Positions 12,035 through 39,934 of a stretch of 64,000 nucleotides of DNA are shown here, piece after piece. Each line of letters starts with the position of its first letter. The first letter of the stretch is position 1. Source of the stretch: Theocolax elegans (lineage: Eukaryota > Arthropoda > Insecta > Hymenoptera > Cerocephalidae); assembly GCA_026168455.1 (NCBI GenBank), contig CM047427.1:16939201-17003200 (forward strand), read 5' to 3'. The notes under the pieces were generated by a model. It ran no database searches and was not told the DNA's origin. It worked only from the letters and a program-made list of their open reading frames with translations. The translations under genes were made by a program, and so were the position numbers.

Positions 12035-12145
12035 GACAAGGTACGGTTTATCCACATAAAAATTGAACACGCAATTTTTTTTACACAAAAATAATTATAC
12101 AATAGTTTGTACACAGAGTGAATTTTTTTCTTACACTGTGTATAA
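12035..12145 (+). repeat. Left terminal inverted repeat of the MULE
   Basis: 111 bp matching the inverse of 39,816-39,926 at 109 positions. The inner part has spaced GTGTA/TACAC motifs (for example TTTGTACACAGAG and TTACACTGTGTA), plausible transposase-binding sites. The match ends sharply inside 12,145. Confidence 0.95.
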
Positions 12146-12401: not shown

Positions 12402-12559
12402 CTATCTATCCATCATAACCTGTGGAAGGTATGAGTCAATCTTAACAGCACATTCTGGGCAAGCAGTTAACCTCTGATTCACAATACAGGGAATGCAAGC
12501 CCGATGGTGGCAGGGTCTTAATTTCTGGACACGTGATTTACTGCCACACTGAGCGCAAC
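12402..12559 (-). CDS. MULE gene exon 18: C3HC4 RING finger
   Basis: Residues 899-950 and the stop. The spacing C900-x2-C903-x11-C915-x-H917-x2-C920-x2-C923-x8-C932-x2-C935 is a complete RING-HC finger; the last pair is CPEC. RING-HC fingers usually bind E2 enzymes, so ubiquitin ligase activity is possible, not shown. The exon is entered in phase 1 from exon 17 through acceptor GAGTAG. The stop is followed by a polyadenylation signal. On its own the exon is too short to have been noticed as a gene. Confidence 0.87.
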
Positions 12560-15500
12560 CTACTCAACAATAAAATATAGACAACATCTTTTATTTTAAC
12601 ATTAACATAAATTTTTATATTATGAGATTCCTTGAACACACTGTATAAGTATAGATATACTGTATAAACTTATAAGACAACTCCTATAATAAAACAACAG
12701 TATTACGCAATAAATACTAGACATACACCTTAATTAACCTATGATAAATCTAATTTTTTAAGCTATTTTTTGAAGAACCACTTTTTAAAGGAATTGCACG
12801 TTCCTGCATGTACTCTTGAGAAAAATGGAGTTGTGGAATGGTTCATTTTCAACTCTGTGCGATTCAAGTATTTAAAAATCATTGTATTAACCTAACACCC
12901 CTTTTTCAAAGGAATTCCACGTTCGTGCACGTTCCTTTGACAAAGATCGGGTTGTAGTATGGTCTATTTTCAAACATTATATGTTTAAGGAATTTAAAAA
13001 TAATTGATTTAACCTAACACCGATTCTCAAAGCAATTGCACGTTCGTGCATGTTCCTTTGATAAAGATCGGATTGTAGTGTTGTTCATTTTGAACTCTGT
13101 GTGTTACAAGTATTTTAAAATCATTGAATTAACTGAACACCACTTTTCAAAGGAATTGCACGTTCGTGCATCTTCGTTTGACAAAGATTGGGTCGAAGTG
13201 TGGTTCATTATCGGCGCTGAGCGTTACTAGTATTTGAAAGAATATTGGATTAACTCGTCAGTTCTTCTCTAAGGAATTGCACGTTCGTGCACGTTCCTTT
13301 GAGAAAGATCGGGTTGTAGTATGGTCTATTTTCGAACATTATATGTTTCAAGAATTTAAAAATAATTGATTTAACCAAACACCGATTCTCAAAGCAATTG
13401 CACGTTCGTGCATGTTTCTTTGATAAAGATCGGATTGTAGTGTTGTTCATTTTCAACTCTGTGCGTTTCAAGTATTTAAAAAACATTGAATTAACCTAAC
13501 CCCCTTTTTCAAAGGAATTGCACGATCGTGCATGTTTCTTTGAGAAAGATCGGGTTATAGTATGGTCTATTTTCGAACATTATATGTTACAAAAATTTAA
13601 AAATAATTGATTTAACCTAACACCGATTCTCAAAGCAATTGCACGTTCGTGCATGTTCCTTTGATAAAAATCGGATTGTAGTGTTGTTCATTTTGAACTC
13701 TGTGTGTTACAAGTATTTTAAAATCATTGAATTAACTGAACACCGCTTTTCAAAGGAATTGCACGTTCGTGCATCTTCCTTTGACAAAGATTGGGTTAAA
13801 GAGTGGTTCATTATCAGCGCTGAGCGATAGTAGTATTTGAAAGAATATTGGACTAACTCGTCATTTCTTCTCAAAGGAATTGCACGTTCGTGCACGTTCC
13901 TTTGAGAAAGATCGGGTTGTAGTATGGTCTATTTTCAAACATTATATGTTTCAAGAATTTAAAAATAATTGATTTAACCTAACACCGATTCACAAAGCAA
14001 TTGCACGTTCGTGCATGTTCCTTTGATAAAGATCGGATTGTAGTATTGTTCATTTTCAACTCTGTGTGTTACAAGTATTTTAAAATCATTGAATTAACTG
14101 AACACCGCTTTTCAAAGGAATTGCACGTTCGTGCATCTTCCTTTGACAAAGATTGGGTTGAAGATTGGTTCATTATCAGCGCTAAGCGTTACTAGAATTT
14201 GAAAAAATATTGTATTAACTCGTCAGTTCTTCTCAAAGGAATTGCACGTTCGTGCATGTTCCTTTGATATAGATCGGATTTTAGTGTTGTACATTTTCAA
14301 CTCTGTGCGTTTCAAGTATTTAAAAATCATTGAATTTACCTAACCCCCTTTTTCAAAGCATTTGCACGTTCGTGCACGTTCCTTTGAGAAAGATCGGGTT
14401 GTAGTATGGTCTATTTTCAAACATTATATGTTTCAAGAATTTAAAAATAATTGATTTAACCTAACACCGATTCTCAAAGCAATTGCACGTTCGTGCATGT
14501 TCCTTTGATAAAGATCGGATTGTAGTGTTGTTCATTTTCAACTCTGTGTGTTACAAATATTTAAAAATCATTGAATTAATTTAACACCGCTTTTCAAAGG
14601 AATTGCACGTTCGTGCATGTTCCTTTGACAATCATCGGGTTGAAGAGTGGTTCATTATCAGCGCTGAGCGTTACTAGTATTTGAAAGAATATGTGATTAA
14701 CCCGTCATTTCTTCTCTAAGGAATTGCACGTTCGTGCACGTTCCTTTGAGAAAAATCGGGTTGTAGTATTGTCTATTTTCAAACATTATATGTTTCAAGA
14801 ATTTAAAAATAATTGATTTAACCTAACACCGATTCTCAAAGCAATTGCACGTTCGTGCATGTTTCTTTGATAAAGATCGGATTGTAGTGTTGTTCATTTT
14901 GAACTCTGTGTGTTACAAGTATTTTAAAATCATTGAATTAACTGAACACCGCTTTTCAAAGGAATTGCACGTTCGTGCATCTTTCTTCGACAAAGATCGG
15001 GTTGAAGAGTGGTTCATTATCAGCGCTGAGCGTTATTAGAATTTTAAAAAATATTGGATTAACTCGTCATTTCTTCTCAAAGCAATTGCACGTTCGTGCA
15101 TGTTCCTTTGAGAAAGATCGGGTTGTAGTATGGTCTATCTTCGAACATTATATGTTTCAAGAATTTAAAAATAATTGATTTAACCTAACACCGATTCTCA
15201 AAGCAATTGCACGTTCGTGCATGTTTCTTTGATAAAGATCGGATTGTAGTGTTGTTCATTTTGAACTCTGTGTGTTACAAGTATTTTAAAATCATTGAAT
15301 TAACTGAACACCGCTTTTCAAAGGAATTGCACGTTCGTGCATCTTTCTTCGACAAAGATCGGGTTGAAGAGTGGTTCATTATCAGCGCTAAGCATTACTA
15401 GAATTTGAAAAAATATTGGATTAACTCGCCAGTTCTTCTCAAAGCAATTGCACGTTCGTGCATGTTCCTTTGAGAAAGATCGGGTTGTAGTATGGTCTAT

Positions 15501-18500
15501 CTTCGAACATTATATGTTTCAAGAATTTAAAAATAATTGATTTAACCTAACACCGATTCTCAAAGCAATTGCACGTTCGTGCATGTTTCTTTGATAAAGA
15601 TCGGATTGTAGTGTTGTTCATTTTCAACTCTGTGTGTTACAAGTATTTTAAAATCATTGAATTAACTGAACACCGCTTTTCAAAGGAATTGCACGTTCGT
15701 GCATCTTTCTTCGACAAAGATCGGGTTGAAGAGTGGTTCATTATCAGCGCTAAGCGTTACTAGAATTTGAAAAAATATTGGATTAACTCGCCAGTTCTTC
15801 TCAAAGCAATTGCACGTTCGTGCATGTTCCTTTGAGAAAGATCGGGTTGTAGTATGGTCTATCTTCGAACATTATATGTTTCAAGAATTTAAAAATAATT
15901 GATTTAACCTAACACCGATTCTCAAAGCAATTGCACGTTCGTGCATGTTCCTTTGATAAAGATCGGATTGTAGTGTTGTTCATTTTCAACTCTGTGTGTT
16001 ACAAATATTTAAAAATCATTGAATTAATTTAACACCGCTTTTCAAAGGAATTGCACGTTCGTGCATGTTCCTTTGACAATCATCGGGTTGAAGAGTGGTT
16101 CATTATCAGCGCTGAGCGTTACTAGTATTTGAAAGAATATGTGATTAACCCGTCATTTCTTCTCTAAGGAATTGCACGTTCGTGCACGTTCCTTTGAGAA
16201 AGATCGGGTTGTAGTATGGTCTATTTTCAAACATTATATGTTTCAAGAATTTAAAAATAATTTATTTAACTTAACACCGATTCTCAAAGCAATTGCACGT
16301 TCGTGCATGTTTCTTTGATAAAGATCGGATTGTAGTGTTGCTCATTTTCAACTCTGTGTGTTACAAGTATTTTAAAATCATTGAATTAACTGAACACCGC
16401 TTTTCAAAGGAATTGCACGTTCGTGCATCTTCCTTTGACAAAGATTGGGTTGAAGATTGGTTCATTATCAGCGCTAAGCGTTACTAGAATTTGTAAAAAT
16501 ATTGTATTAACTCGTCAGTTCTTCTCAAAGGAATTGCACGTTCGTGCATGTTCCTTTGAGAAAGATCGGGTTGTAGTATGGTCTATTTTCAAATATTATA
16601 TGTTTAAGGAATTTAAAAATAATTGATTTAACCTAACACCGATTCTCAAAGCAATTGCACGTTCGTGCATGTTTCTTTGATAAAGATCGGATTGTAGTGT
16701 TGTTCATTTTGAACTCTGTGTGTTACAAGTATTTTAAAATCATTGAATTAACTGAACACCGCTTTTCAAAGGAATTGCACGTTCGTGCATCTTTCTTCGA
16801 CAAAGATCGGGTTGAAGAGTGGTTCATTATCAGCGCTAAGCGTTACTAGAATTTGAAAAAATATTGGATTAACTCGCCAGTTCTTCTCAAAGCAATTGCA
16901 CGTTCGTGCATGTTCCTTTGAGAAAGATCGGGTTGTAGTATGGTCTATCTTCGGACATTATATGTTTCAAGTATTTAAAAATAATTGATATAACCTAATA
17001 CCGATTCTCAAAGCAATTGCACGTTCGTGCAAGTTCCTTTGATGTAGATCGAATTGTAGTATTGTTCATTTTCAACTCTGTGCGTTTCAAGTATTTAAAA
17101 ATCATTTAATTAACCTAACCCCCTTTTTCAAAGGAATTCCACGTTCGTGCATATTCCTTTGAGAAAGATCGGGTTGTAGTATGGTGTATTTTCAATACTG
17201 TGTGTTACATGTATTTAAAAATCATTGATTTAACCTAACACCGCATTTCAAAAGATTTGCACATCCATGCGTGTTCCTTTGATAAAGATCTGTTTGAAGA
17301 ATGGTTCATTTTCAATCTCTGTGCGTTATAAGTGTTTAAAATACTTTGAATAAACTTGAGATCGCTTTTGCAAGGAATTGCACGTTCCTTTGAGTAAGAT
17401 TGGCGAATAGTTTGGTTCGTTTTCAGCTTACTTCTAATCGCTTGCATGATCATATATACTATAGTATAGTATATTGCGGCACTAGTGCGAGAAAGTAGAT
17501 TGCCGTGTTGTTTGCGGCCAAGCAAAGCGAGAATCTTTTTCTCGCAGTTGTATTATACGGTATTTTTTAATATGTGTGGAGAGGTCAATTTTGAGCACTT
17601 TTTTTGTTGACTTGGTAGAATTTACCCTTTTGGGACCGAGGATCAAAAATGATTTATAGTAATCAGATTTAGATTTACATGTATGAGGCTGGGAATGTAC
17701 TTACGTGACTTTTTACCACCACGATGAGTCTTTTTAACTTTTTTATCTATTGTAGTTTCTGTAAATTAAACATAATCCTTTAGTATCTCATTAGTAAAGA
17801 AATTGGTTTAGATTAAATTTGTATTAATACAATCGTCTACTGAACCGATTAATGTGAAAGAAATTGAATTCTTATATTACCCTGACAGTGCTTTACGTTG
17901 TCTACATCTTTGACACGAAATATCGATCTCTCGGAATCCACCGATTTAGTAGTACCTTGTGCTTCTACAGTTAGCTCTAGCTGACTCGCAGCTATTGGAT
18001 TTTGTTCGACAACTGTCAAATATATTTAACATTAATGAATAATAAATTTGATTACATATGTTTCGACGCAAAGGTTTATACAGTTATGTAAATAAAAAAA
18101 TATTTGTTATAATAGTTTTGCATCATAAGATATAATAGTTCTATAATAATAATATGCAAGGGGTTACCAAAGCCAAATTTTATCCTTCCTATCTTATCAA
18201 CCTGAAAAGAGACAGAAAGTTAGTTATAATTAAAGAAGGACGACAATTTACACAAATTGATAACAGTGCCCTTCCTTTATTAATAATCTATCGCAGTTCA
18301 AAATTTGAAGCAAAAATATCAATTGGTTTCGGCGTAATCCCTTACCAAATATTACGATAATTTCGTGCAATTTTAGGTTATACGCTCGTCGAATTAAACA
18401 CATGTGATGACTTTTGGTAAGGGATTTCTAGAAAACTAGTCAATATTTTTGCTTCAAATTTTAAAGACAGGTTAATTATTAATAAAGGAAGGGCACTGTT

Positions 18501-21500
18501 CTTCTCGATTTTCGTATGTTAACTTGCTTTTTTAATTGTAATTAATTTTATATGATTTTCGATGTCGGTAATGTAGGGAGGATGAAACGTGACTTTGGCA
18601 CTCCGTTAAGGGTAGAGTATGGTCAAAAATGATAGAAAAATCAATTTTTTTTAAATTTAGAAACAAGTTCTAAAATGTTATGTAGAATGTGCGTAAATAA
18701 TTTTTAATATTATAAAGCTTATGTGTCTACATAATTGCAGCATGACATAATATTCATTTAATGAGATGTCGGATTCAGAAATAGCCACTTTTAATATTTT
18801 TTTATAAATAAAAGAATGAATTTTTGAAAAAATCCTGTCCATCAGGTCCTCAGACATGTTTTCTACTAATTTTTTAAGATTTTTAAATCGATATTTTAAT
18901 TACGATATTTAGGTTGGAAGTTTATGCCTTTTACCGACCGAAAATTGTTTATTTAATTATTATTAAAAAAATTATTTTTTCTTAAAAAATCGATCCTTCA
19001 AGCCCTTCCTTATATTTTAAGTTTATCCTTATGAATTTTTTCAGATTTTTAAATGGATGTTATAGTTATAATTTTTGGGTTGAAAGATGTAGATTCCTGT
19101 CCGACATTTGGGTCCGACATTTCCGTAATGCAATAAGTCATTTATTTTAAACTTTAAAGCTGAATAACTCCAAAACTATTTTTTATACCTTCAAAAGATT
19201 CCTTGCGGGATAATTTTTTAATGAAAAACATTACAATTTTGAAACAATTACAGAGTCCTTTTCCCCCTAATTCACTATAATTTGTATTTTATGAGTAAAA
19301 AATCACTATTTTAGTGATAACAAATTAAATAATCTTGGTACAAGTTGAAAACAAAAAATCACTTTCAATTTGACGAATGATACTTTATTCGAAGGGAAAA
19401 ACGGAATTATTCGAAAAAAAACATGGATTAATATATTATTTAACTGATTAATGTATTAGTGGAGAAATAAATTGTATTCATAGATTACCGTTGTTGTGCT
19501 TATCTTTGACTACATCTTCGATATGAATTATTACCGATCTATCGGAAGTCAATAAAGTAGTAGACACTTGTGATTCTACGATTTGTTCTGGTTGGTCAGC
19601 AACAATCGGATATTGTTCGAGAACTGTAAAATATGATTATTATTAATGAATAACTATTCGCTCCTTAATATTTCGCCCATAGAGATCGAGTTTTTTTCAA
19701 AATTTCGAGATCGAGTTCAAATTTTGAGAGCCTCCAACGTTATTTTTATATTATTAATTTATTTATTTATAAATGTTATTATTTTGTATTATTGATATTA
19801 TTTTATATTATTTCTTATTACTTATGTTTTTTGAAATCGCAATTATAGAGATGAAGAAAATTACATTCAATGTGAGACATTTCTTATTTTCCTGGCCAAG
19901 GTATATACTATATACTATAGTCATAGGGATTTAAATTTCCACCCGAACCGAAGTCTCGAAGACAAATATTTTACCTCCCGTGGAATCAGTACTATTTTTT
20001 TCAAAAAACGAGATTGAAAATACAACTTTGAGATTCGACACCGAGAGCCAAAGTGGTACTTTCGGCCTATTATGTACGAAAAATATTTACCGTTGATTTT
20101 ATTATCGTCCACTGTATCTTCCTGTTCAGATTGCAGGATCTCAAAAGTTGCAAGTGTCTCGGAGGCTAATTGATCCATCATTTCTGGCTGGGGATTACTA
20201 ACTACAAGCGTAAAACATTATAAGATAATATAAAAAAATTCATTTTACGTAAAGAAAATTTTAGAATAAAAATTGGATACTATTGAATTTAACTAATTAT
20301 GTAACGATGTTGACTATATAAGGGCAAATCTACAATAGTCTTTATGTAAGTAATATGTGTAATTTTTTTAAGTCTGTAACTTGATTTTCTGAAAAAGCAC
20401 ACCATTGTGCTTGGGTTTTAATTTGTTTAGTTTGTTTATTGTTCGACTAACGAAACAGTCTGTTTTGAAAAAAGTATCTGAAACGGCACATATAGTATTT
20501 CCTTAGAAGTACAAAAACAATTGCGTTTGCTAGCGAAATAATGGAAAAAACAAGCAATTTTACGAGTTTTGTTTAATTTTTAACTGCGCCGATGTTCGAC
20601 GAATGAACGTTCGATGAAATCACATAATAATAACAGAACATAATTCTTGAATTTGAAACAAAAAATTTAAGCACCGGTAGGGTTGTGTGACTTCATCGGA
20701 ATTGTTTTAATAATGCTTCAAAGTTATAATGTTATTAACTAGTAAAATTTGAAATATCTCACATTTTAAATAGGGCACTCAACCCTACTCGAGCTCAAAT
20801 TTTTTGTTTTAAAGTTAAGTATCATGTCCTATTATTATTATGTGATTACATCGAACATCGCAACAAAAAATTAAATACAGCTCCTAAAATTTCAAGTTTT
20901 TTCTAATTATTTCGCTAAAAAACGTAACTGTTTTTGTATTTTCAAGGAAATATCTTCTGTGCTGTTTCAAATACTTTTTCCAAAATAGACAACTGTTTCA
21001 TTGGCCGTACAACAATCAAATTAAAACCCAAGTACAATGGTGTGCTTTTTGACGAAACCAAGATACAGATTTTAAAATTATAGATTTGCCTACAGCTATG
21101 TAATAATTTAAGTTAGCCATAATAATATTGTACTAAACACAAATTTAAATATTACCATTATCGCAATTCTTATCAGCACCTCCATCTTTTTTGCCAGCAA
21201 TCAAGCTGTCGGAAAATGAAGTTATTGGCACATTTATATCCTCTACATAGATTACATCAACTGGCATCTTCTCATTAACTGTAAATTATACATAATATTT
21301 TTTAATTAAAGAGTAAAGTGGATTATTAATTTAAGGGTCGAAGCGGTTCATGCTTTTAAAATTGTACATATTTTACTTCATCAAGTTAAAAGTCAACTGA
21401 AAACTCAGTGTAATTGATAATATAGAAAGTTTTTAAAATAGTATTTCAATAATATAATATTAAAAACAAATAAAATAATTTACCGTTCAGGCTATTATCA

Positions 21501-24500
21501 TCACCTCTACTTTCCATCTGAAACATCGATATCTCGAATGGTGACAATTCCATGGAAGCTGATTGATAAAAATTTTCCGAAATGCGATAGACAGCTGCAG
21601 ATATAAAATAGTATTAAAATATAATAATGCAATTTTATATAAACAAATTCTATATTACATTAAACTTGAATGAATATAATAGCGCAATAATAATTTTTTA
21701 ATTTATAAATAGGTCGCTTCAATTTCTATCTGCTCATTAATAGTTAATCTTAATATTTTGTTACAAAATATTTGACGGCATAATAAAAGAAATTTTACAT
21801 TTTTTGCTGATTGTACGTATTTTACTCAACCAAATTGTTATTGGCATTACATAAAAAAGTTTCCTCTAATATCAATAGACAACAATAGTTACAAATGAAT
21901 ATATACAATTCTAATAAAAATAATTTATCTCAGAATGGTATTAAGTTACCATTCTGAGATAAATTATTTTTATTAGAATTGTAGATATTCATTTGTAACT
22001 ATTGTTGTCTATTGATATTAGAGGAAACTTTTTTATGTAATGCCAATAACAATTTGGTTGAGTAAAATACGTACAATCAGCAAAAAATGTAAAATTTCTT
22101 TTATTATGCCGTCAAATATTTTGTAACAAAATATTAATGCTTAAAGCTGTCATGTTGCGATCAGAAAGTTTACCGTTTAAACTATCGTCACCTTCATCTT
22201 CCTGCTCAGAAATCAGAACCTCAAAAGGAGAAAGTCGTATGGAAGCTGTTTGATACAGATCTTCTGGAACGCGATCGCTTGCTACAAATGTATTGAAATA
22301 TTAATAATGTTTTACCTTACAGATTAAAAACGCTAGAAGAAAAAGTGAGATTAGTTAGGATTATAATTCCAACTTAATTTGTGACGAGAATTTGTGATAT
22401 ATATATATGTATGGGGTATTCCACGTGAAGTGGTCCGATCAAAATTGTAAAATGCACCAAATTTTGGGTACACATTGCAAATGTTTTTCAGAATACAGAA
22501 AAAAATTTTTAGGTACTGGTATTTATTAGCTCAAAAGTTATTCTAACCTCAAAAAGTGAGCTTTTTCCAGTTTTTTTCAACACCAGCTGGGTTCATCGCT
22601 AAGAAAGACAAAAAATTCACAAAAATTAACATGGTATTTCCCATTTAAATTTTTTAAAAAATTTGGTGTTTCTTTAAATTATCATAACTTTTTACAGATT
22701 TGAAGGCCATAAAAATGCTACAGACCATTTGAAAGGTATTGCTCCAAGCTTTCTTTTAGACTTTCGGATAAAAATATCAATGGTGGCGAACTTACACTTT
22801 TTTTAAGTTGAATATTGACATGTAGTTTATGTAACATTGACCTTGAGATTAGGAATTCTAACCCAGAAGGATAAATTCTACACATAATTAGCAACGAATG
22901 TTACATATAATGTTGTATAGTAAAAGTTAATAGATTTTGAGTTAAATAGCGATGAACCCAGCTGGTGTTGAAAAAAACTGGAAAACGTTCACTTTTTGAG
23001 GTTAGAATAACTTTAATAAAAAAAAATTACCATCGTATTTCTCAGCGTCGCCTTGATGGATTTTGCCAGTAATTAAATTTGAAGATGCAGCACCGGTTAC
23101 ATGAATGTCCTCTGATTGGTTGGCGTTTAATGACCCCTGATCAGTAGCTGATAATCATAATAATATTACTAAATATATAAAGCACGGAGAAAAAAAAAAA
23201 GCAAAAGTTACGGGAGAGTCAAGCAATTTTTACCCTATTACTCCGGTAAGGCGTAAAAAGCTACAGTTACTTAACTTAGTCAAGCAATTTTTGCTTGAGT
23301 AAGTCCGGCAATATTAAACTGACTCTATACCGTATAAATTAACGTAGTTTTCAAGTAAGGATTGCTCAAGTGTTTCAATAACTATTTAGTATATATGTAT
23401 AATAATCGAAATTGTTTTCAATACAATTTACAAATAAATAAATATTTATTTGTTTTAATGAAATAAACATTAAATATTTGACATACTTGACTACTATTGA
23501 ACAATGTTTAGAACATTCATATAACTATAGAGCTGCCTTAAATAGTAAACCACTTGACATATACTTGGAATTGAAAATCTGTAATTTTTTACGAATTTCA
23601 GATACATTGTCTTATTACTAAAAGAATTTAGTAATTTATCTAATACAATTTCATTATTTTAGATAACTACTGGAAAAGTATTTTGCATAAAAAACATAGT
23701 ACAGGGTTTAAAAATAATATTTTATTCTTTCAACATAATGGCTGGATATATATAATATACATAAAAACAGTTTATAATGAATATTTTGTTGCAATGTAAA
23801 TATTTTCATTGCGTTTTACCATTATACAAGGAGATACATCCAATAATTCATTAACATCTTTTAAAACAAATGTTTTAGATTCATGAACGCAATAAGCATG
23901 CACATGTACATCGAAATATATGTTTATAAAACCTTGCATACGCAGAAAAATATTTGTACCTTTAATATATATATCAGTGATTTTTCCGAAATTAATTAAT
24001 TCATTTTCATCCATTTTTTCCACGAGAAACATGCCGATGGTATACTGCACACCCTTATATTTTATCCAATCAGTTGACAATATTTCCTCTGCAACGTCAC
24101 TGTCTGAAAATAGCCTTCTTCGAGTGCTTAAATCAATTACTTCATTCGTCTCGTATATTATTTCCGTTAAATCCGTTTTTTTTAATAGTTTGATGTATGC
24201 CATCCTAAGTTGGTTTCTCAAAGCTATAGTTTTGATGATATTCATTCGATTACTCGATGAAATGCAATGTAATTTTAAATTTCTATGATTTGACTCATAT
24301 CGCATGGACCAAAAATGGACTAATGGACCGTTCTTCATAATGGTTCGCGGAATGTGAAGCATGTTATGAAATTTATATTTTAAAGGTCCATATAAATCTT
24401 TGTACGCACTTAAAAAGTCTTCTATTAATTATTTTAGTACAAGTACTTGCGCCTCAGTACAATGCGGTGATGTTACTATGCCTATGATTTTTCTAAGCAA

Positions 24501-27500: not shown

Positions 27501-30500
27501 TCAATAATAATTATTGCATTAATAAATTTATAAATTAAATTTCTTAGTCGTATAATATTAATAAATTTACCAGCATAGGCGTGCACGAGGAATGCAAACA
27601 TTTATATTGCTGGAAATATAATTTAACATTTTTGCAAGGTTCTCTTAATTGAAAAGATCTTATCCACTTTTCTATAATTGTATTGTCCGGTGAATCGTTT
27701 ATTTGAAGCCATTTGACATCGTCTTCATCATCAAGTAAACCATCAGATTCTAAACAAACATGTTGTATATTTAATTTTTTTACTCTTTGTAAATTAGTAT
27801 ATAGTTATATTATTTATTACAAATTAATTTAATATTTATAAACATCTTTTAATTAAAGTATCAGTTTACAGTTGCTTTGTTTTTAATAAACTGTTTTATT
27901 TTAGTAATTAATTCAATTATGAAAAATTATTATTTTTTATTAAACTAATTTAAACTATATAAGATATTTATTACAATAATATACCTTGTAAGACTTTTTC
28001 TTTACTCACTACATTTCGTGCAATTAGTTTTTTCCGCAATGCTAAATAATAATCATATAATACTCCTCCAGTATTAATTTTTTTTTGAAATTTCGTCGCA
28101 CTTTGGAACGGAAAATAGAAAAATTTTGCAGTTGCATCCGGTGGTCTATCTTCTGTAGCGAATATATTTCCTAATTGACTAGAAAGATCAAGAAATCTTT
28201 CTTTACTTATACTGAAAATAAATTTTTTTAAATTTATAATTAAAGCATGCATAGAGACATATCTATATGAGAATATACCAATTATATCAATATATATTAA
28301 TATTAATTGCAATACCTATACATTTTATTATAATCAAACTCATAATGAATAACTAGATCACATATAGAGTGACTATCAACTTTACGTTCTAATTTGAATA
28401 ATTGCGTTATTAATAAACCTTTTGTTGTAGAATTCAATAATTCAGTAACAGTCTTTCTTGGCTCAGCTATAGTTGTACAAAAAAAATTATACGGAAATAT
28501 TTTAAATAATTGTTGTAGTATATTATAATATTATATTCTATTACAAATAAAAAAATTTAATTGATTGTTTCAATCCAATTATATTTAGGTACAAAAACAA
28601 AAATATTTAACAAATTTTTTCAATGTTCAAGTTGCAATATTGAAAATTAGTTATTTAACTTTAAAGCAGTATTTTCAATTTCGATTTTAATATGTACAGC
28701 TTTTCTTACACTTATACCTAAACATACAAGACGAAATGTTTATTTGTTATATGTATTCACAATACATAGGAAAGCTTCATTGGGTGCAGGTAATCAAAAA
28801 CTAAAACATTTTTTGTGACATCCATATATCTGATAAACTTTATAACCAATAATCCGTCTTATCAAATATAATGCACAATAAAGCTATATAGTCAAGAGAC
28901 AACTGTTAGAAAAAAAGAATCATTGATTATAAAGTATATCAGACATACTTATGACATAAAAAGGTATTTTAGTTTTTGGATATCTGTACCCGCTGTAAAT
29001 TTGTGTACCAAAGTCTACATATTGTATGTACTTAAATTATACATTGGAAAGCTTCAGCGGGTAAAGGTTTTGAAAAACTAAATTAGTTTTTTGTGACATT
29101 TATACTTCTGAAAAACTTTTCAACCAATGATCCTTCTTATCGAATAGCTATTTCTGGAGTGGATCTTGTTCTGTGCAATTATATAATGCACAATAAAGCT
29201 ATATAGTCAAGAGTCAACTGTTAGAAAAAAAGAATCATTGATTATAAAGTATATCAGACATACTTATGACATAAAAAGGTATTTTAGTTTTGGATATCTG
29301 TACCCGCTGTAAATTTGTGTACCAAAGTCTACATATTGTATGTACTTAAATTATACATTGGAAAGCTTCAGCGGGTAAAGGTTTTGAAAAACTAAATTAG
29401 TTTTTTGTGACATTTATACTTCTGAAAAACTTTTCAACCAATGATCCTTCTTATCGAATAGCTATTTCTGGAGTGGATCTTGTTCTGTGCAATTATATAA
29501 TGCACAATAAAGCTATATAGTCAAGAGTCAACTGTTAGAAAAAAAGAATCATTGATTATAAAGTATATCAGACATACTTGTGACATAAAGTGACATTTAT
29601 ACTTCTGAAAAACTTTTCAACCAATGATCCTTCTTATCGAATAGCTATTTCTGGAGTGGATCTTGTTCTGTGCAATTATATAATGCACAATAAAGCTATA
29701 TAGTCAAGAGTCAACTGTTAGAAAAAAAGAATCATTGATTATAAAGTATATCAGACATACTTATGACATAAAAAGGTATTTTAGTTTTTGGATATCTGTA
29801 TCCGCTGTAAATTTGTGTACCAAAGTCTACATATTGTATGCATTTAAATTATACATTGGAAAGCTTCAGCGGGTAAAGGTTTTAAAAACTAAATTAATTT
29901 TTTGTGACATTTATACTTCTGAAAAACTTTTCAACCAATGATTCTTCTTATCGAATAGCTATTTCTGGAGTGGATCTTGATTTGTGCAATTGTACACAAT
30001 GCATTAGAATCAAGTTAATTTTCAAAATAACAAACAAACATAAAACTGTACAATAACTGTACAAATGTACACATACGTATCACAGATAGTATACTGATTG
30101 TCGAGTTACTCAAATTATTTTCCATATCCACATCAGATACACAAATACTTTCATTCTGCAGATCATTCTCATTCATCACATCAACTAATGTACTATTTAA
30201 TGAATCTTTTGGTCTATCATTTAACAAAGAATTGTTAGTATGGGAATCTTGGGTTTGTGTTTCATGCAGTATTCCATTATCACACTTATTTTCATGTTCT
30301 TTCTTCCACACGTCATATTTACAGACAAATCGTTTTTTAAAGCCACATTCATTCTTGTGGAAAATATCATTCAACAAATCGCTATCAATTTGATAAAAAA
30401 CAAATTCATCCACACCTGAAACTACAATTTAATACATGAAACGGTGCAAAAAAAAACGATCTTAATTTTAGGTTATAAAACTTACCTTTAAAGCGTTCTA

Positions 30501-33500
30501 CAAAGCTCTCCAGTCCCCAGGATTTTAATATGTTATCAACAAACTCACTTCCCATTATAAATAAACAAATTTTAATTAAGTATTAATAACAAATGTTTAA
30601 TAACTTCTGAGTACACGCAGATCACATCGCATTACCGAAGTTGATCAAGCAAAATTTATTTGATAATATCACTTCGTTGGGAAACCTGATTGATTGAGCA
30701 GGGATTGACGGAGAGTCAAGCAATTTTTGCTTGACTACTCAAGTATATGAACCTTATTGTCAATTAAGCAAATATTGCTTGACTCGACAAGCAAATTTTG
30801 CTTTTTTTTTTTCTCAGTGAGTACATTAACAATATAAGAGAAAGAGAGATTATTTTTGTTAATTTCTTAAATACTATTATATAGTTACTGAAATTTAGAT
30901 TTTTGTATTAAATTTGAAAATAATGCTTACGCAAGCAAGAACATTATTGTCTGTTTGTTATTGACCGGTTTAAACAATTACAAACGATGTTTTGTAATAA
31001 CTATATTTCTTGAAGCCCGAATCTCTAGAGGACCCATTCGTCCCTGAATGCGACTACTTTCGTGTAGCTAGCTTCAGCTTCAGCTTTACAAAGCGAGTGA
31101 AAAGTTGAAAATATCAAGCAAGGTATAAAACACCCCCAACAACAACCTTATACGATATTTCATAGCATGGTAACTTCAAAATTTGAAATGAAATTGGTCT
31201 TTCGAGGTTGGCATGCTATAAAATTATTTTGTCTTTGTACCTACCACTTTTTAGCTGTTTTTTCGGCCGACCTCTACGTTTGATGCTGCCTGTATTGGAA
31301 GTGGAAGCTTCGACCGCATTACTTTTAATCTCGATTCGTACATTCGGTTTAGTTTTACGTGGGCGACCTCTTTTTCTAGGCTCAGCATTATTCTCCTTGT
31401 CTACTTCCTTGCTTTTGCGCTTTCGACCTTTTGTGACAGGAGTCTGCATGTTGCTTTCATGAAGCCTTTCCGGGTTGGCCACAACTGCTGCTTCAGGAGT
31501 CCGAACTAAAAAATTTATTATAAACGTTATCGTTTACCATCAAATGGGTGGGGTCCAATTTGTCGAAGACTCATTCAAATTATGTGCGATATTTCGAATT
31601 TTAAAAATTAGAATCGCTTTGTTGTTATTTCAAACCAAGAAACGTAGAATGATCATTCTTTCGAAAGTAATACAATCTTCAGGTATTTTGTATTTGATTT
31701 AATAGTTCAAATTCCAAATAGTAGATAAATAATTTTCTATATTATTATCTGTTATCTAACTGGCAATAGATAAGTATTATAAAAGTTATTTATCTGTAAA
31801 TTTCGAATCTTTAAAGTACGAATTTTTGGACCATATATATAAAAACTGAAGAATTCATGACTTTTGAAATAATGATCATTCTATTACTCTTGGTTCTAAA
31901 TAATAAAAATGCATTTCTAATTTTTGACATTCGAAATAATGCACATATTTTGAATGAGTCTTCGACAAATCGGACCCCACCCCCATCAAATATTTGGAAA
32001 TGAAAAATCGACAACAATACCTATATATGTACGGTTTCTCTTCTTAACCAGTTGCTCGTTTTCAAAAGCACCTCCTGGGCCGCCATCTGCTGTAAGCGTT
32101 TCATTTAGAAATTGCACATCTCCTGCAGATTCGTTCTCTTCTGGTTCATCTGAACGTGCAACACTCTCATTATGACTGTAGACTACAAAGATATCAAAAA
32201 GAAATATAATAATTATAAAAAATAATTTTACTATCGTAATTTGAATGATGATACATACTTCTCGAATATTCAAACCTTCTTTGAGCTGCTATATTTGTAA
32301 TAAATTCTTCTACCGTCATTCTGTATCATATGAATAAACTTAATAATAAATTTATAAAAAAACATAGATCCTGTAGCAAATTAACTTACTTTCCTAGTAG
32401 TAAGTCTTCCTCTGCAAGTTGAACTTGGTAATCTGCGGCTTGCAAATGTATAGGCCTTATTACAGAAAGGCGAATACCTCTCTCCGCTTCTTTAAAATCA
32501 CTGCTTACTTTCTCCATGATTTTCTGCATGTCATCTACAATTTAATGTATAATTTTTTTATATTTAAGGGGTACCAAAGTCAAATTTTATGCTCCCTACC
32601 TTACTAACTTGAAAAGTAACAGAAAATTAGTTAAAAAAGGACGATAATTTACGCAAATAAAGGAGGAAGTGCCCTTTCTTTATTAATAATCTATCTCTGT
32701 TCAAAATTTGAAGCGAAAATATTAATTGGTTTTCGCGTAATCCCGTACTAATTAAAAGGAACGTCAATATTTTTGTGCAATAAAAGATTTCAAAATTTTA
32801 TTCAGGTATAACTTACTAAGCATTTTCCAGATGCAAGGTCTAGTGCCCATAGTTTTTGCTGCGTGTAGATGAAAATTTTCACACGTGTTATTAGTTTTTA
32901 CTGGGTTTTGGAACACAGAAAAAATATTTGCCAATGGTAGCCAATAGCTTCGAATATAATAGCTAAAATTTTGAAGCTTATTAGCTAATCCGTCATTTTT
33001 TTGACACACGTCATCTATCAGTCGAGTGATATAAGCTACACCTTGCTCCATTTTTGAAGCTGGCAAATGAGCCAACGCATAAGTCTTCTCAACTATGTAT
33101 TCCAGCTCAATAGGCAATTTTAATTTGCTCCAACGCTTTATAATTGCCTAAAATATATTAGTGAAATAAATTTTATCAACAAAAGTCGTCGTTAGTAATC
33201 AAATTTGTGACTAACAGAAATTCATAAGAAATATGAAAATAGAAAATAGTATATTACGATTTAAGTACGTGAAACAGACGATGCACGCATACCTGACTTC
33301 GCTCCAGCGACAAATATGACGAGTGCATGAATCAACTACACCATGCATGTTTATAGTACACTAGTTTTTAACACTTCGTGACCGAAACACGATTATCTTT
33401 AAGAGGACGTCGAACAGGCATGCTTACCGACATTTGCAGAAAAAAATGTTTTTGAAACACTGTGGGCGAAATGCCATTTTTAATGCCAGTACAATGCATG

Positions 33501-36500
33501 TGAAATAACACATTCTCGCACTAGTGTGCGAAATTCGCGCATGCGCAATGGATAATTTAGGAAGCAGATGTACTGGTCGTCGCACTTACGAATACTAGCA
33601 CATCTGCTAAATGCTTTGTTAAATGTAAACGTGCTAGTCTTTGTGCGACACTACTATAGATTGTTTAGTAAACACAAGATAGACGATCCCCTACTTTTTA
33701 TGAATTAAAAATTGATTAAAATTGGCATTAAAAAATGTCATTCCGCACATAGTGGTTCAAAAAATAGTATACGGTACAAGTGTGCTCAAGTTATTCAAGC
33801 ACTCGTCTTTTTGCCTGCGACTCATGCGTGAATCGCCTATTTCAGACACTAGTATTTTACTGTACTATTAAATTTAAATTTAGGCTAATAAAGCACACAT
33901 GAAACTTTAATATAAGAACTACATGAACCGCTTTGAGAATTAAACATTAGAAACGAATATTCAATTGAGGGAATAATTTTTATATACAATGTAATATAAA
34001 ATAACAGAGGGATAGTACATATATTATTGTTATTACAAATCAATTTGCAAGTATAAAAGGATGCCTATTTGATTGTTGCGTTTACAATAACTTAACAGGA
34101 TGTCAGACCTAAATTACAGGAATCTACACCTTTCAACCCAAAAATTATACCGAAAATATTGCATTCAAAATGTAAAAAAATTCATACGGGTAGGTTGGAA
34201 CATAAGGGAGGATCTAATGTTTTGATTTTGTAAGCAAAATAATTTTTTAAATAATATTTAAATAAACAATTTTTGGTCGGTAATTATTAGTCAAAAAAAG
34301 GCATAATTTTTCAACCCAAACATCGTAATTAAATTATCGATTTCAAAATGTGGCAAAATTTCGAAACATTGTTTAAAAAATTTGTTCATTTGTTTATAAA
34401 ATATCATTATTACCGTATCACTAATGGTAAAAATTAGAAGCACGGCCCCCAAACTAGGTATGGCCCGTTACGTCGAGTCATTTTAAATTATATTTTTTTT
34501 TATTATAATAAGAAATAAAATCAACTTACTTGTTTATAATGAAAAAGGCAGCCGCATATTTTGGCTTGAGGAAAATTCTTTTGAGCACTGTTAATTTGAG
34601 CTCTCTCAAAATCGCTGCTCACTGTACGTACATTATTTTGCAGTTCAGGTACAAGTGAGAATATGTGTGTCCAAACGGCATCGTACATTGCTTCAGTCCT
34701 GCTACTAGTAAGAGCAAAAATTGCAGGAAACCCCTAAAGTTAAATTTGATTTGATGATATTGTCTAAATTGTATTAATGTTTAACGCTATTACAAAATAA
34801 CACGTGAAATCTCACATGCAATCTCATGCCAATATCTCATCTCATATTTCAATTGCGCCGCTTAAACTTAATAATAATATACAAATTTCTGAGCATGGTG
34901 AGTCACTTGTTAAGGGGACAAGCCTGGGTTAACTCGATAAAAATCAAAAAATTTTCAACACTGTTTCGAAAAACGTCTTTGTTGTTCAAATTAAAGACAA
35001 AGACGTTTTTCAAAAAAGAGTTCCACTTAAGTTTTAGTACTTGTAAAAACGAAAAAAACGCGAGTGATTAGGTTCGATTTGATGAAGAAAAACGTGAGCA
35101 ATCGTGGACCGCGCAAAGCCCTTTGCGAAAATAAGGTGTCAGCATAGGATTTTTTTTGGAGTCTAGAATTAATGTATAAAGGTTTAGTTACTTAACTATC
35201 TTAAATCGAACCCCACAGTAGGTACTTTATCGTCGAATTTTTTTTATGTATATAGCTTTATAAGGAAACTTTTAAGAGCTGAATGAAAATTTTTTGATTT
35301 TTTTCGAGTTAACCCAGGATTTCCGATTTTTAGCAATTTCTAACGTGAAGTTTCGTGCGTGAACACAAGAGTATCTCACGTGAGAGAATCAAAAAAAAAG
35401 TTGAATGATATTACCCTTTTTTAGAACTTAAGATGATCTTAAATGTTAACTAGAAATGTCAATGTCAAGTTGAAATCTTACCGAAGTCATTTTCCTAAAA
35501 TGAATAATATACACTTGAGAGCATAATGGCTTCTCGGGTCGTATCTGCAAATAAAAAAATATATTACTATTATAACGGGCACGCATTTTCAAATTCGCAA
35601 GCGCCCGTGCACACAAAAATCGCATAATCACGCGTTATTTGAACAAGCCAATATTGAGATTAAAGTTAAATCGTGCCTAAAGAATAATAAATACCTGAGT
35701 TATATAAATTTTGCCTAAACACCCCTAGGAGAAATGCGAAAATTTAAAATGGCTAGAATTCTAGTCAATGGATTCGAAAATTGTACCGAGTTTTAATAGG
35801 TAAAAAGTGTACATGGATGACAAAAAATGACATGGAATTATATTTTATTTAAGTGAATCCAAAAAACTTAAAAAGCTTGTGAATTGCTTATATTATAGAT
35901 ATATATAAGTAAAGCGGATGTTGATTTTATCTCGTTATATTACACTCAAAAATATAACTTTCAAATTTGATGGTTAGGTTTCTTGAATACTTATTATTTA
36001 CCTACTTATTAACTAATAAAACTAGAAATAAATTGTAACTAATAGGAGCCGCTGAGAAATGTTAAAAAGTGTTTCCTTTAGTACTTAAAAATGGATAAGA
36101 AAAGTACCTATGTAGTAGTAAACGGAAACGGATACGCTATTTAATACCGTATAAAACGTTTTGCATTTTTACTAGTGACCTTCTTCTCCGATAGATTGTT
36201 TCGAAAAACACACATGTCTACCCTTAGACTCTTTCGGCAAAAAAGAGACATACTGATCAAGTTCTTTTGGTCACATACTAACAAAGATACATGAATAACT
36301 CATATTTTAATATTGAATAAATTACACAGTATGCGATGTAATTATAAACTAACAAATAAATAAGTTACAATGCAGTACAGCGTGCATTAATATTGTAATA
36401 ACGCGAATCGTTAGTTATGTGATCTCCTAGCGTTTCCCGCACCTACCTTGCAAGACGAACTTTGTTCATTTATTAATAATTAAATATTCCGCTTGGTTTA

Positions 36501-37497
36501 TTCCATAAACCCCGTACTAAATTCCAGTTAACGTGTATTTCGAGCGACGGGCACAAGCACTGTAAGGATTATTGATAGAGTATGACTCGCACGGTTTGAG
36601 TCTTCATGCGGCGGAGAATCACAGTCCGTATCACGTAAGACCGATTGCACGGCTAAGCCAATCGACGCATTCCCCGACCGTGCTCGACGAAAAACGGAAC
36701 CACAAACTGCTCTATTAAACTAAAAAACTAAGCAAATTAATAATAAATACTTACCCTAAAGGTACCATCGCAGAAAAGTTGTGTACAGTTAGCGAGTCCA
36801 ACAAGCATCGAGTCATGAATGAATAATAAAGCAATCGAACCATCTTTCGCTGTAACGCAACCTTTATAGATATCTTCGACTGTTTTTAAATCTGTTAACG
36901 CTTCTGCTAAATCCGATAGTGTTTCTGGAATTGGTGGAACGTTGTTTCTCCGAGCTTTCTGCATTTTGCCATCGAAGTTTTGAAACTGCACCTTATTCTT
37001 TATTTCTTCATACCTAGGATCAATACATTTTTTAGTTAATTTATTAACTTAAAAATTTTATTACGTTATTCATTATAGGTTAATAAACTAAAATTAAATT
37101 GCAGTTCATTTTAAAAACTTATTAAAGGTTAAAAAACGTATCAACAAATACCTTGTTAAAAATATATAAATTCTACTTACTCTGGTTTTGCTCGTACGAT
37201 TTCGTAAATAGAACGCAATTTTTCAAAAGTCGTTTGGGCGAGAACTAACAACTCCTCTTCAAATCTTTCTTTTTTTAAAAGAAGGTGATCTGGATAGTGG
37301 CCTTTGTGCACTCCTTCAACAGTCAACTCTTGCTTCTCAAGATCTTGCAGGGTGTTGACTCTGATACAAGCCGAACATCCCGACTTTCTCACAGCACATC
37401 GGAAAGTTCTGCCGGGTGGACGGCTATCCAAATAATAAATAAAACCTTCGTGATAATACCTTACGGTATTATTTTGCTTACCGCACAATCTAAACAT
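12402..37497 (-). CDS. FLYWCH-MULE transposase-AT-hook-RING protein, 18 exons, about 950 residues
   Basis: Exons in coding order: 37497-37181, 37013-36755, 35544-35482, 34733-34530, 33147-32817, 32534-32390, 32320-32259, 32182-32021, 31505-31245, 23147-23031, 22281-22174, 21594-21484, 21278-21156, 20201-20091, 19623-19489, 18012-17881, 17758-17705, 12559-12402. All 17 introns are GT-AG and the phases agree at every join; the sum is 2,853 nt, 951 codons including the stop. Domains: FLYWCH finger (about residues 1-70), DDE core with D188, D254, E371 and a C-x-F-H near 275-278, AT-hooks near 561 and 593, duplicated acidic exons (602-880), a basic stretch (881-898) and a RING (900-935). By family knowledge it should cut and move the surrounding element in the nucleus; a ubiquitin-ligase role for the RING is inference. 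The ATG is chosen because an in-frame TGA lies 24 nt upstream with no acceptor between. Intron 9 hosts the CACTA-like element. Exon joins are my reading and need transcript support. Confidence 0.85.
12770..17410. repeat. Satellite array with trimeric higher-order repeat
   Basis: About 38 head-to-tail monomers of 120-121 bp. Neighbouring monomers differ, while every third one is nearly identical, giving a 362-bp higher-order unit (for example near-copies starting at 14,845, 15,207 and 15,569). Each monomer contains a dyad: TCAAAGGAA, then GCACGTTCGTGC (itself palindromic), then TTCCTTTGA. Edge monomers are more divergent, as expected of an array that is homogenised in its centre. It fills most of intron 17 of the MULE gene. 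The repeated 64-67-codon frames are by-products: neither 121 nor 362 is a multiple of three. Confidence 0.97.
17705..17758 (-). CDS. MULE gene exon 17: basic, NLS-like
   Basis: 18 codons, phase 1-1, reading IDKKVKKTHRGGKKS: a likely nuclear localisation signal. Acceptor TACAG, donor GTAAGT. The following 5.1-kb intron holds the satellite. Confidence 0.75.
17881..18012 (-). CDS. MULE gene exon 16: acidic repeat, type B
   Basis: 44 codons, phase 1-1, with VVEQNPIAA, TVEAQGTT and SERSIF in the same places as exon 15. Donor GTAATA. Confidence 0.8.
18158..18605. mobile_element. Foldback MITE in intron 15
   Basis: Inverted halves starting AAGGGGTTACCAAAGCC and, from the other side, CGGAGTGCCAAAGTCACG; the inner arms share a TTCAAAATTTGAAGCAAAAATAT-like core. 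The 68-codon frame inside is not a gene. A half-length relative lies at 32,564-32,753. Confidence 0.7.
18755..19135. mobile_element. MITE of the GATGTCGGAC family, copy 1
   Basis: AT-rich element whose ends read GATGTCGGAT and GTCCGACATT and which contains CCGACCGAAAATTGTTTATT. Related copies lie at 26,985-27,236 and, inverted, 34,097-34,410. Confidence 0.6.
19489..19623 (-). CDS. MULE gene exon 15: acidic repeat, type B
   Basis: 45 codons, phase 1-1. It opens V-L-E-Q-Y-P-I and matches exon 16 across most of its length. Acceptor TACAG, donor GTAATC. Confidence 0.8.
20091..20201 (-). CDS. MULE gene exon 14: acidic repeat, type A
   Basis: 37 codons, phase 1-1. The ASETLATFEIL and SEQEDTVDDNKIN segments resemble exons 11 and 12. 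Donor GTAAAT. Confidence 0.78.
20323..21090. mobile_element. Foldback MITE in intron 13
   Basis: A 768-bp palindromic element with ends GGCAAATCTA and TAGATTTGCC. Both halves share CACACCATTGTGCTTGGGTTT (inverted) and an AGGGTTG core near the centre. The arms are imperfect. It occupies almost the whole intron between exons 13 and 14. Confidence 0.78.
21156..21278 (-). CDS. MULE gene exon 13: acidic repeat, type C
   Basis: 41 codons, phase 1-1. It aligns with exon 10 (VEDINV, SLIAGKKDGG). Acceptor TACAG, donor GTAATA. Confidence 0.78.
21484..21594 (-). CDS. MULE gene exon 12: acidic repeat, type A
   Basis: 37 codons, phase 1-1. YQSASMELSPFE and the DDNSLN ending align with exon 11 almost end to end, including the exon borders. 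Donor GTAAAT. Confidence 0.8.
21751..22136. repeat. Near-perfect 386-bp palindrome
   Basis: Two arms of about 190 bp around a centre of a few bases near 21,943 (GGTATTAAGTTACC). By eye I found one mismatch between the arms. It lies in intron 11. It may be a young foldback element, a hairpin-RNA source or an assembly artefact. Confidence 0.93.
22174..22281 (-). CDS. MULE gene exon 11: acidic repeat, type A
   Basis: 36 codons, phase 1-1. The core YQTASIRLSPFE and a DDSLN end match exon 12 and, more weakly, exon 14. Donor GTAAAC. Confidence 0.8.
22415..23013. mobile_element. Inverted-repeat element in intron 10
   Basis: The segment at about 22,536-22,607 (AACACCAGCTGGGTTCATCG and a TATTCTAACCTCAAAAAGTG core) recurs inverted at about 22,948-23,013. 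The left side continues with GGGTATTCCACGTGAAGTGG, with no partner on the right, so the right end looks truncated. Confidence 0.6.
23031..23147 (-). CDS. MULE gene exon 10: acidic repeat, type C
   Basis: 39 codons, phase 1-1. It shares the EDI.V....S.LI.GK..G.A.K..D pattern with exon 13. It is the first exon after the intron that contains the CACTA-like element. Acceptor ATCAG, donor GTAATT. Confidence 0.78.
23772..25898 (-). pseudogene. CACTA-like element gene 2: transposase with one in-frame stop
   Basis: One frame of 709 codons starting at ATG 25,898 and broken only by TAA at 24,429-24,431; the second part continues in the same frame to 23,772. Residues about 304-309 form a C-x-x-C knuckle (PCRICR), and about 366-375 read LDLMHDMLEG, the D-x-x-H...EG motif found in CACTA-type transposases and relatives. 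After the stop the family-like GPLVHFWSMRYE and SSSNRMNIIKT segments follow, so the stop cuts a conserved region. It could be a recent nonsense change or, less likely, be read through. Excision and insertion of CACTA-type elements is the expected role of an intact protein. It starts 76 nt after gene 1 ends. Confidence 0.82.
25974..30555 (-). CDS. CACTA-like element gene 1: SAM-like N-terminal protein, 8 exons, 534 residues
   Basis: Exons: 30555-30486, 30415-30077, 28466-28316, 28211-27985, 27749-27571, 27492-27351, 26696-26563, 26336-25974. All introns are GT-AG, phases agree, and the total of 1,605 nt is open to the stop. Residues 1-45 (ILKSWGLESFVERFKG, then VDEFVFYQIDSDLL) look like a SAM domain, a protein-interaction fold. 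Residues 46-140 are Asn/Asp-rich and probably disordered. The rest is a charged alpha-type protein I cannot assign. In CACTA elements a second gene often encodes a DNA-binding accessory protein, so that role is plausible here. Intron 2 is 1.6 kb long and filled by a 314-bp tandem repeat. Confidence 0.78.
26985..27236. mobile_element. MITE of the GATGTCGGAC family, copy 2
   Basis: Ends CAGATGTCAGACTC and GGGTCCGACATCC bordered by CCTTAA. The interior includes the CATCAGGCCCTCAGGCATG stretch that matches 18,840-18,860. It sits in an intron of the CACTA-like gene 1, so the family has moved since that element arrived. Confidence 0.65.
28735..30000. repeat. 314-bp tandem repeat inside the CACTA-like element
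   Basis: Landmark ATGCACAATAAAGC occurs at 28,871, 29,186, 29,500 and 29,683, with a decayed copy near 29,998; the spacing is 314-315 bp except for one shortened unit of 183 bp. A diverged unit precedes the array. The copies are nearly identical. The array sits in intron 2 of gene 1. Confidence 0.93.
31245..31505 (-). CDS. MULE gene exon 9: two AT-hooks
   Basis: Residues 515-601. Two AT-hooks, KRGRPRK (559-565) and KRRGRPKK (590-597), lie in a strongly basic, Lys/Arg-rich context that would bind the minor groove of AT-rich DNA and serve as a nuclear signal. The exon leaves through a phase 1 donor GTAGGT. If that donor is not used, the frame runs nine more codons to TAG at 31,216-31,218, giving a 610-residue form without the C-terminal half. 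Either form keeps the whole catalytic core. Confidence 0.85.
31541..31990. mobile_element. Foldback MITE in intron 8
   Basis: Inverted halves starting ATCAAATGGGTGGGGTCC; both contain TTTGTCGAAGACTCATTCAA and a GAATGATCATTCT palindrome further in. No coding capacity. Confidence 0.8.
32021..32182 (-). CDS. MULE gene exon 8: acidic linker
   Basis: Residues 461-514, a symmetric phase 1-1 exon rich in Glu, Asp, Asn and Gly (SDEPEENESAGD). Low complexity, probably disordered. Donor GTATTG. Confidence 0.78.
32259..32320 (-). CDS. MULE gene exon 7 (62 nt)
   Basis: Residues 440-460 plus one base; acceptor ACAG, donor GTATGT. Intron 7 after it is phase 1, and all later introns are also phase 1. Confidence 0.78.
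32390..32534 (-). CDS. MULE gene exon 6
   Basis: Residues 392-439 plus two bases; helical, charged sequence (a KIMEKVSSDFKEAERG-like stretch). Acceptor TGTAG, donor GTAAGT. No domain is recognised. Confidence 0.8.
32564..32753. mobile_element. Half MITE in intron 5
   Basis: Starts TTAAGGGGTACCAAAGTC and resembles the left half of the element at 18,158-18,605. The inverted second half is missing. Confidence 0.6.
32817..33147 (-). CDS. MULE gene exon 5: catalytic Glu
   Basis: Residues 282-391 plus one base. It contains KTNNTCENFH, where E371 is the expected third catalytic residue (TNN..E in the family). No methionine is needed because the exon is entered from exon 4 in phase 0. Confidence 0.92.
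33290..33850. repeat. GC-richer repeat with CTAGTGCGAGA motifs, copy 1
   Basis: CpG-rich block in intron 4 containing CTCGCACTAGTGTGCGA. Segments such as GACGATCCCCTACTT recur inverted in the block at 38,450-38,950. It has no coding frame. It probably belongs to an unnamed non-autonomous family. Confidence 0.55.
34097..34410. mobile_element. MITE of the GATGTCGGAC family, copy 3 (inverted)
   Basis: Contains GGATGTCAGACCTAAATTAC, ACACCTTTCAACCCAAAAAT and CAATTTTTGGTCGGTAATTA, in inverse order to copies 1 and 2. In intron 4. Confidence 0.62.
34530..34733 (-). CDS. MULE gene exon 4: second catalytic Asp
   Basis: Residues 214-281. The order FPAIFALTSSRTEAMY, then SSDFERA (D254, second catalytic Asp), then KICGCLFHYKQ is the hallmark of MULE transposases. 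The donor is CAA|GTAAGT, phase 0. The exon is too short to stand out as an open frame by itself. Confidence 0.93.
34910..35322. mobile_element. TTAA-type palindromic element, right end truncated
   Basis: TTAA then GGGGACAAGCCTGGGTTAA at the left, with the inverted partner CGAGTTAACCCAGG at about 35,309-35,322. The expected final CTTGTCCCC is lost. A relative of the element at 4,738. In intron 3. Confidence 0.68.
35482..35544 (-). CDS. MULE gene exon 3 (21 codons)
   Basis: A 63-nt exon for residues 193-213, in phase on both sides (acceptor TTTGCAG, donor GTAAGA). It carries the hydrophobic strand after the DGTF motif (SQVYIIHF), as expected in the RNase-H-like fold. Confidence 0.85.
35550..36750. 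other. Intron 2 of the MULE gene
   Basis: AT-rich with a GC-richer patch at 36,410-36,720 that has many CpG but no long frame and no recognisable product. Confidence 0.4.
36755..37013 (-). CDS. MULE gene exon 2: first catalytic Asp
   Basis: Residues 106-192. It ends in the QLFCDGTFR motif, where D188 is the first acidic residue of the MULE DDE triad. The acceptor is CCTAG and the donor GTAAGT (phase 0). Upstream residues form a leucine- and acid-rich linker. Confidence 0.9.
37181..37497 (-). CDS. MULE gene exon 1: FLYWCH-type zinc finger
   Basis: Residues 1-105 plus two bases of codon 106; phase 2 donor GTAAGT. Aromatic residues in the YYHEGFIYY stretch, then C34, C41 and C44, and H64 and H67 in the HKGHYPDH motif follow the FLYWCH layout. 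The usual Trp before the first Cys is Phe here. FLYWCH fingers are common DNA-binding partners of MULE transposases in animals. Confidence 0.88.
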
Positions 37498-39926: not shown

Positions 39927-39934
39927 ATAGCGAA
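39927..39934. repeat. Right target-site duplication of the MULE
   Basis: ATAGCGAA, an exact copy of 12,027-12,034. Confidence 0.92.

Follow-up and report, generated by a model that had tools for sequence, protein, structure and literature searches.

A long, intron-rich Mutator-like transposon of Theocolax elegans apparently encodes a transposase joined to a C-terminal RING finger

Arthropod Mutator-like elements (MULEs) are reported to be 1.4-10.0 kb long (PMC13359780). Those of Aedes encode transposases of 416-554 residues, with a FLYWCH-type N-terminus in 13 of 14 families, target-site duplications (TSDs) of 8-9 bp and, in 12 of 14, terminal inverted repeats (TIRs) longer than 100 bp; excision of Muta1 of Aedes aegypti has been assayed in laboratory yeast (PMC5225508). 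Other domains and repeats have been described beside MULE transposases: a minisatellite follows the transposase open reading frame (ORF) of aphid Phantom, Rehavkus has a PHD finger and a minisatellite, a Phytophthora MULE carries a C3HC4 RING, and the Ghost MULE of Myzus cerasi, with a truncated transposase and no TIR or TSD found, holds a RING in its own 420-bp ORF (PMC6446971). RAG1, a transposase-derived protein, has a RING with ubiquitin ligase activity, and a 2015 paper describing the RING of RAG1 and Chapaev stated that RING and Chapa domains occur in no other known transposable elements (PMC4411706). Here we describe a MULE of Theocolax elegans (Hymenoptera, Cerocephalidae) whose predicted transposase ends in a RING. 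It lies in a stretch of 64,000 nucleotides, hereafter the window (contig CM047427.1 of assembly GCA_026168455.1, positions 16,939,201 to 17,003,200).

We rebuilt the gene from the sequence and tested the model by script. Its 18 exons, on the minus strand between 37497 and 12402, together comprise 2853 nucleotides and encode 950 amino acids with a single terminal stop; all 17 introns are of the GT..AG type, and phase 1 is kept from exon 8 through exon 17 and into the acceptor of exon 18. Exon 1 (37181-37497) encodes an N-terminus labelled FLYWCH-like from sub-threshold matches in relatives. The MULE core follows, with the catalytic residue D188 (36769-36767) in exon 2 (36755-37013), the MULE domain in exons 3 (35482-35544) and 4 (34530-34733), the latter containing D254 (34613-34611), and the C-terminal part of the core with E371 (32880-32878) in exon 5 (32817-33147); the Pfam MULE model PF10551 matched the protein at 39.8 bits, against a cut-off of 27.6. 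Exons 6 (32390-32534) and 7 (32259-32320) lead to an acidic linker in exon 8 (32021-32182) and to exon 9 (31245-31505), which encodes two AT-hooks with RGRP cores at residues 560 and 592 (31371-31360 and 31275-31264). Repeat comparison of the exons beyond exon 10 (23031-23147) gave two groups of like exons, namely 11, 12 and 14 (22174-22281, 21484-21594 and 20091-20201) and 15 and 16 (19489-19623 and 17881-18012). Exon 13 (21156-21278) was considered as a mutual repeat of exon 10 and rejected, the score falling within the shuffle range. Exon 17 (17705-17758) encodes a basic stretch, and exon 18 (12402-12559), assigned from its zinc ligands, profile and acceptor as well as the gene model, encodes the C3HC4 RING from residue 900 onwards and the stop. 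The 18 exons are presumably spliced together in vivo. An initial annotation of this DNA had predicted 18 in-phase exons, about 950 residues, the triad D188, D254 and E371, two AT-hooks and a C-terminal RING, all of which the rebuilt model reproduced, and we hold the anatomy of the gene and its element, as described here, with high confidence.

The gene lies wholly inside a DNA transposon, a setting that the initial annotation had missed, and is not a host gene. The element (12035-39926, minus strand; 27,892 bp including inserts) is bounded by a 5' TIR (39819-39926) and a 3' TIR (12035-12142), each of 108 bp and identical to each other at 107 positions, and is flanked by the 8-bp TSD TTCGCTAT on its 5' side (39927-39934) and its 3' side (12027-12034). 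We compared this copy (A) with six close copies (B-G) from the 658-Mb genome that holds the window. In copies B (C3:79.6 Mb), C (C4:16.3 Mb) and D (C7:35.5 Mb), homology to the window begins at 39926 and ends at 12035, the exact ends being common to A, B, C and D. Both ends were inspected in these four, and three have 8-bp TSDs, which differ from copy to copy (TTCGCTAT in A, ACATAAGC in B and GGTTGTTA in C); none was found at copy D. The TIR has 17 genomic matches, of which 13 reach at least 95% identity; the matches are spread over C2, C3, C4, C6, C7 and small contigs. The DDE core, the TIRs and a TSD within the range of 8-11 bp are the features by which MULEs are recognized, and the element has all three. 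Full-length copies B (17,764 bp) and C (19,589 bp), which lack an element nested in copy A, retain the complete set of 18 exons, free of indels and premature stops, so that the 18-exon frame is more than chance. Copy E is stop-free over exons 1-17, but the acceptor of its exon 17 reads GG and exon 18 is missing from the stretch compared; copy D is without exons 3-10, and copies F and G are partial and without exon 18. The window element is intact and recently mobile, and apparently represents a long, intron-rich, autonomous Mutator-like DNA transposon of a young family.

Copies A and B differ at 8/2853 exon positions (introns, 18/4011 and 17/4597), and A and C at 7/2853 (introns, 11/4008 and 10/4576). 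Synonymous and nonsynonymous differences number 1:7 for A-B and 1:6 for A-C; they lean nonsynonymous and are too few for a selection test. Since the close copies differ so little, conservation of the RING is judged from diverged loci.

We then considered whether the RING belongs to the same protein as the MULE core. The RING exon lies inside the TIRs, near the 3' TIR, in copies A, B, C and D, in a fragment on C976 and in a diverged copy at C3:24.11 Mb. Among 29 RING hits in the genome, 16 are preceded by a family exon on the same strand at a distance of up to 40 kb, against a chance expectation of about 0.13% each, a count that includes near-identical copies and two RINGs sharing one MULE cluster; the other 13 have no upstream family exon, one of them having family exons only on the other side. 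The acceptor is fixed: at 14 of 15 RING loci, representing about 10 distinct sequences, an AG stands two bases ahead of the first zinc cysteine codon, the sole exception being a damaged fragment. A degenerate copy on C581 keeps stretches of all four parts, arranged as FLYWCH-like, MULE, AT-hook and RING. Finally, among 5.8 billion proteins searched, two matched, both from Trichogramma kaykai and each with MULE and RING (P0001, TKK_0012513, and P0002, TKK_0015697; both hypothetical); the initial annotation had suggested looking for just such a protein. The gene order, the fixed acceptor, the intact copies B and C and the two T. kaykai proteins support the predicted joining of MULE and RING in one protein, and the same sequence comparisons place the RING exon at the end of that gene in several lineages.

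Two other readings of the locus were weighed against these data. Long introns 9 and 17 in the window, together with the description of the aphid Ghost RING as a separate ORF (PMC6446971), would suit two adjacent genes in one transposon, the first ending after exon 9 and the second having a start of its own. Intron 9 is long in the window, however, because a 7.6-kb DNA transposon (23183-30819, minus strand; CACTG.. ends, 2-bp duplication CT) inserted there later. This nested element is missing from copies B, C and E, where its flanks join at one clean junction and intron 9 measures only about 0.46 kb. Exons 8-18 share one phase across the supposed gene boundary, and at 14 of the 15 RING loci, 14 of which also keep the fixed acceptor, no in-frame ATG was found between the nearest upstream stop and the first RING cysteine codon. 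With both domains present in two annotated T. kaykai proteins besides, we regard a pair of genes as very unlikely. An 18-exon gene with an intact frame might also recall a MULE gene that the host has domesticated. The nearly identical TIRs, the three distinct 8-bp TSDs, TIR matches on several contigs and the partial copies speak against this, leaving it a negligible probability. Together, TIRs, TSDs and dispersed copies show that the gene encodes a transposase, as initially annotated.

The T. kaykai proteins resemble the window protein in their MULE cores (53 and 59% identical over the trimmed core for P0001 and P0002) and in a RING at or near the end. P0001 also has AT-hook cores, with four RGRP between MULE and RING, and a stretch similar to the acidic linker of exon 8; it differs in that its first pair of zinc ligands is C-x4-C and its tail is longer. 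P0002 differs in having no linker between core and RING. P0002 passes the Pfam cut-offs for both MULE and RING (zf-C3HC4, 22.5 bits against 21) and P0001 passes neither; P0001 aligns along the MULE core, and its source names it a RING-type domain protein. A second protein search, with a three-sequence alignment, found no further species and added only P0003 of T. kaykai, which matched 20% of the query at 100% identity. P0003 is a BEN-domain protein that agrees exactly with P0002 over one stretch, and its gene model may have been fused with the same transposon. A scan of viral contigs gave 25 pattern matches and confirmed no relative.

The window RING has all eight zinc ligands at RING spacing, as do 11 of 13 aligned RINGs. 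Two diverged RING exons, L022 (C5:49.91 Mb) and L023 (C371:46.6 kb), are interrupted precisely at the second zinc ligand by a stop codon, one by TGA and one by TAG. The near-identical RINGs L028 (C1045:32.4 kb) and L031 (C2:24.09 Mb) are more remote in type. Neither has a listed family MULE exon within 40 kb, and their source may be another element or host genes.

In the explanation that we favour, with a probability of roughly 0.6, the element is an autonomous MULE whose DNA-binding DDE transposase carries a RING that acts most likely as an E3 ubiquitin ligase. The transposase would bind DNA, probably the element's own ends, through the FLYWCH-like N-terminus and the AT-hooks, and the MULE DDE core would cut and paste the element. 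The C-terminal RING is predicted to fold as a two-zinc cross-brace, and its likeliest role would be to recruit a ubiquitin-conjugating enzyme (E2), with the transposase itself or chromatin proteins at the transposon as target; by analogy, RAG1, a recombinase from a different transposase superfamily, has a RING that is a ligase. The RING profile of the family is closest to E3 RINGs, and the RINGs L020, L029 and L030 score 33.0, 34.8 and 35.9 bits with zf-C3HC4_3 (cut-off 27). We scored RINGs at four positions that we take to contact the E2, and L020, L027, L029 and L030 keep all four, as in active types.

Three observations weigh against this explanation. No FLYWCH match was found by Pfam in the window protein, so that the FLYWCH label of the initial annotation survives only as sub-threshold likeness in the relatives P0001 and L050 (19.4 and 19.7 bits; cut-off 23.6). 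The RING there called perfect has all eight ligands, yet in the window it falls below the cut-off of every Pfam RING model listing it (18.4 against 21 bits and 16.6 against 27 bits), in contrast to L020, L029 and L030. The window RING also keeps only one of the four presumed E2-contact positions. Ligase activity in the family seems to us an even prospect, and in the window copy itself it is doubtful.

The RING could instead be a structural zinc module that binds transposon ends or pairs transposase subunits. A full set of zinc ligands with a single presumed E2-contact position in the window copy would be consistent with such a module, as would its C-terminal position and the basic exon 17 immediately before it. 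In piggyBac, the C-terminal finger, or cysteine-rich domain (CRD), binds to a motif within the ends of its transposon (PMC8086355). Against this, the FLYWCH-like region and the AT-hooks already supply DNA binding, and the profile is nearest to E3 RINGs. L020, L027, L029 and L030 are moreover of the active type at all four presumed contacts, and L020, L029 and L030, the three that were tested, score above a RING cut-off. We give a structural role a fairly low probability. None of 50 entries listed in the re-examined Foldseek matches was named piggyBac or PHD, which excludes nothing. SUMO-interacting motifs, which a SUMO-targeted ubiquitin ligase of the RNF4 type has in tandem before its RING, were not enriched in the repeat exons: with a motif pattern that we assume to be appropriate, 3 matches were found against 1.87 in shuffles (P 0.28), and P0001 was likewise not enriched (1 against 0.72, P 0.53).

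The inserts in the introns of the window element were also characterized. Its nested transposon has a first exon near 30555, presumably SAM-like in appearance, and a following exon without Pfam match; its long frame (25904-24429, 24428-23772) gave no Pfam match above cut-off. Repeat analysis placed a 121-bp minisatellite within intron 17 (12787-17387), and its copy number varies between elements: the window element has 38.1 units, against 18.1, 39.1 and 8.5 in copies B, C and D. Its unit holds a palindrome-like core, GCACGAACGTGC; the minisatellite might provide internal binding sites or simply expand freely. An insert of about 340 bp in intron 11 (21772-22115), with long inverted halves and unaligned in B, C, D and E, is a foldback-type small element.

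A more speculative extension, which we put forward tentatively, is that an insect MULE lineage carries a DNA-targeted ubiquitin ligase: the AT-hooks and the N-terminal finger would hold the protein on transposon DNA, where the RING would ubiquitinate the transposase or silencing and repair proteins. Such an architecture would have been overlooked because the RING exon lies past a minisatellite that resembles a gene end. If this were true, the aphid Phantom minisatellite placed after the ORF and the Ghost RING assigned an ORF of its own would both be misreadings of this one architecture. The element may affect its host or itself by protein tagging besides DNA cutting, and the RING-bearing relatives with and without the presumed E2-contact residues form a set for asking about ubiquitin control. 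The initial annotation spoke of a new form of transposon-host control, a claim with weaker support than the fusion: the window RING keeps one such residue in four, and RAG1 is already a precedent (PMC4411706). The annotation's statement that no MULE ending in a RING was known stands for a fused C-terminal RING, of which we found no case in a MULE transposase in the literature searched, which lacked most subscription papers; it does not stand for RINGs in MULEs at large, reported for Ghost and Phytophthora (PMC6446971). Within the reach of these searches the form of the fusion, MULE with C-terminal RING, is new, the joining of a transposase to a RING being already known.

The window element shares its DDE core, TSDs and TIRs with Muta1 of Aedes aegypti and the Phantom group, and its FLYWCH-like N-terminus may correspond to theirs. 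It differs from the Aedes MULEs in its longer transposase and its RING, no RING being mentioned in the accessible part of PMC5225508. With 17.8-19.6 kb (copies B and C), 18 exons, AT-hooks and a RING, the family stands apart from the arthropod MULEs surveyed so far, which span 1.4-10.0 kb in a survey whose main text we found not to mention the word RING (PMC13359780). Surveys that require a single open frame may overlook such multi-exon transposase genes. The first and second aspartates, D188 and D254, are 66 positions apart, within the 60-76 given for non-Ghost clades as against 84 for Ghost (PMC13359780); those figures include alignment gaps and so are not the same measure. Like aphid Phantom, the element has a minisatellite associated with its transposase gene, and like the Ghost MULE of Myzus cerasi, compared by description only, it is a MULE with a RING (PMC6446971). 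piggyBac resembles it in a C-terminal cross-brace zinc domain on a transposase; the piggyBac CRD is PHD-like and DNA-binding (PMC8086355), whereas the domain here is a C3HC4 RING with E3-type relatives by profile. RAG1/Chapaev likewise join a DDE recombinase to a RING (PMC4411706), but on a Transib/Chapaev core that the RING precedes, whereas here the core is of MULE type and the RING follows it, from residue 900. The different catalytic core and the opposite RING end point to a joining independent of that in RAG1/Chapaev. The association of transposase and RING, formerly tied to the RAG1/Chapaev line, would now extend to another superfamily, at the other end of the protein and in intact young copies, and would provide an independent case for asking whether transposases benefit from ubiquitin control.
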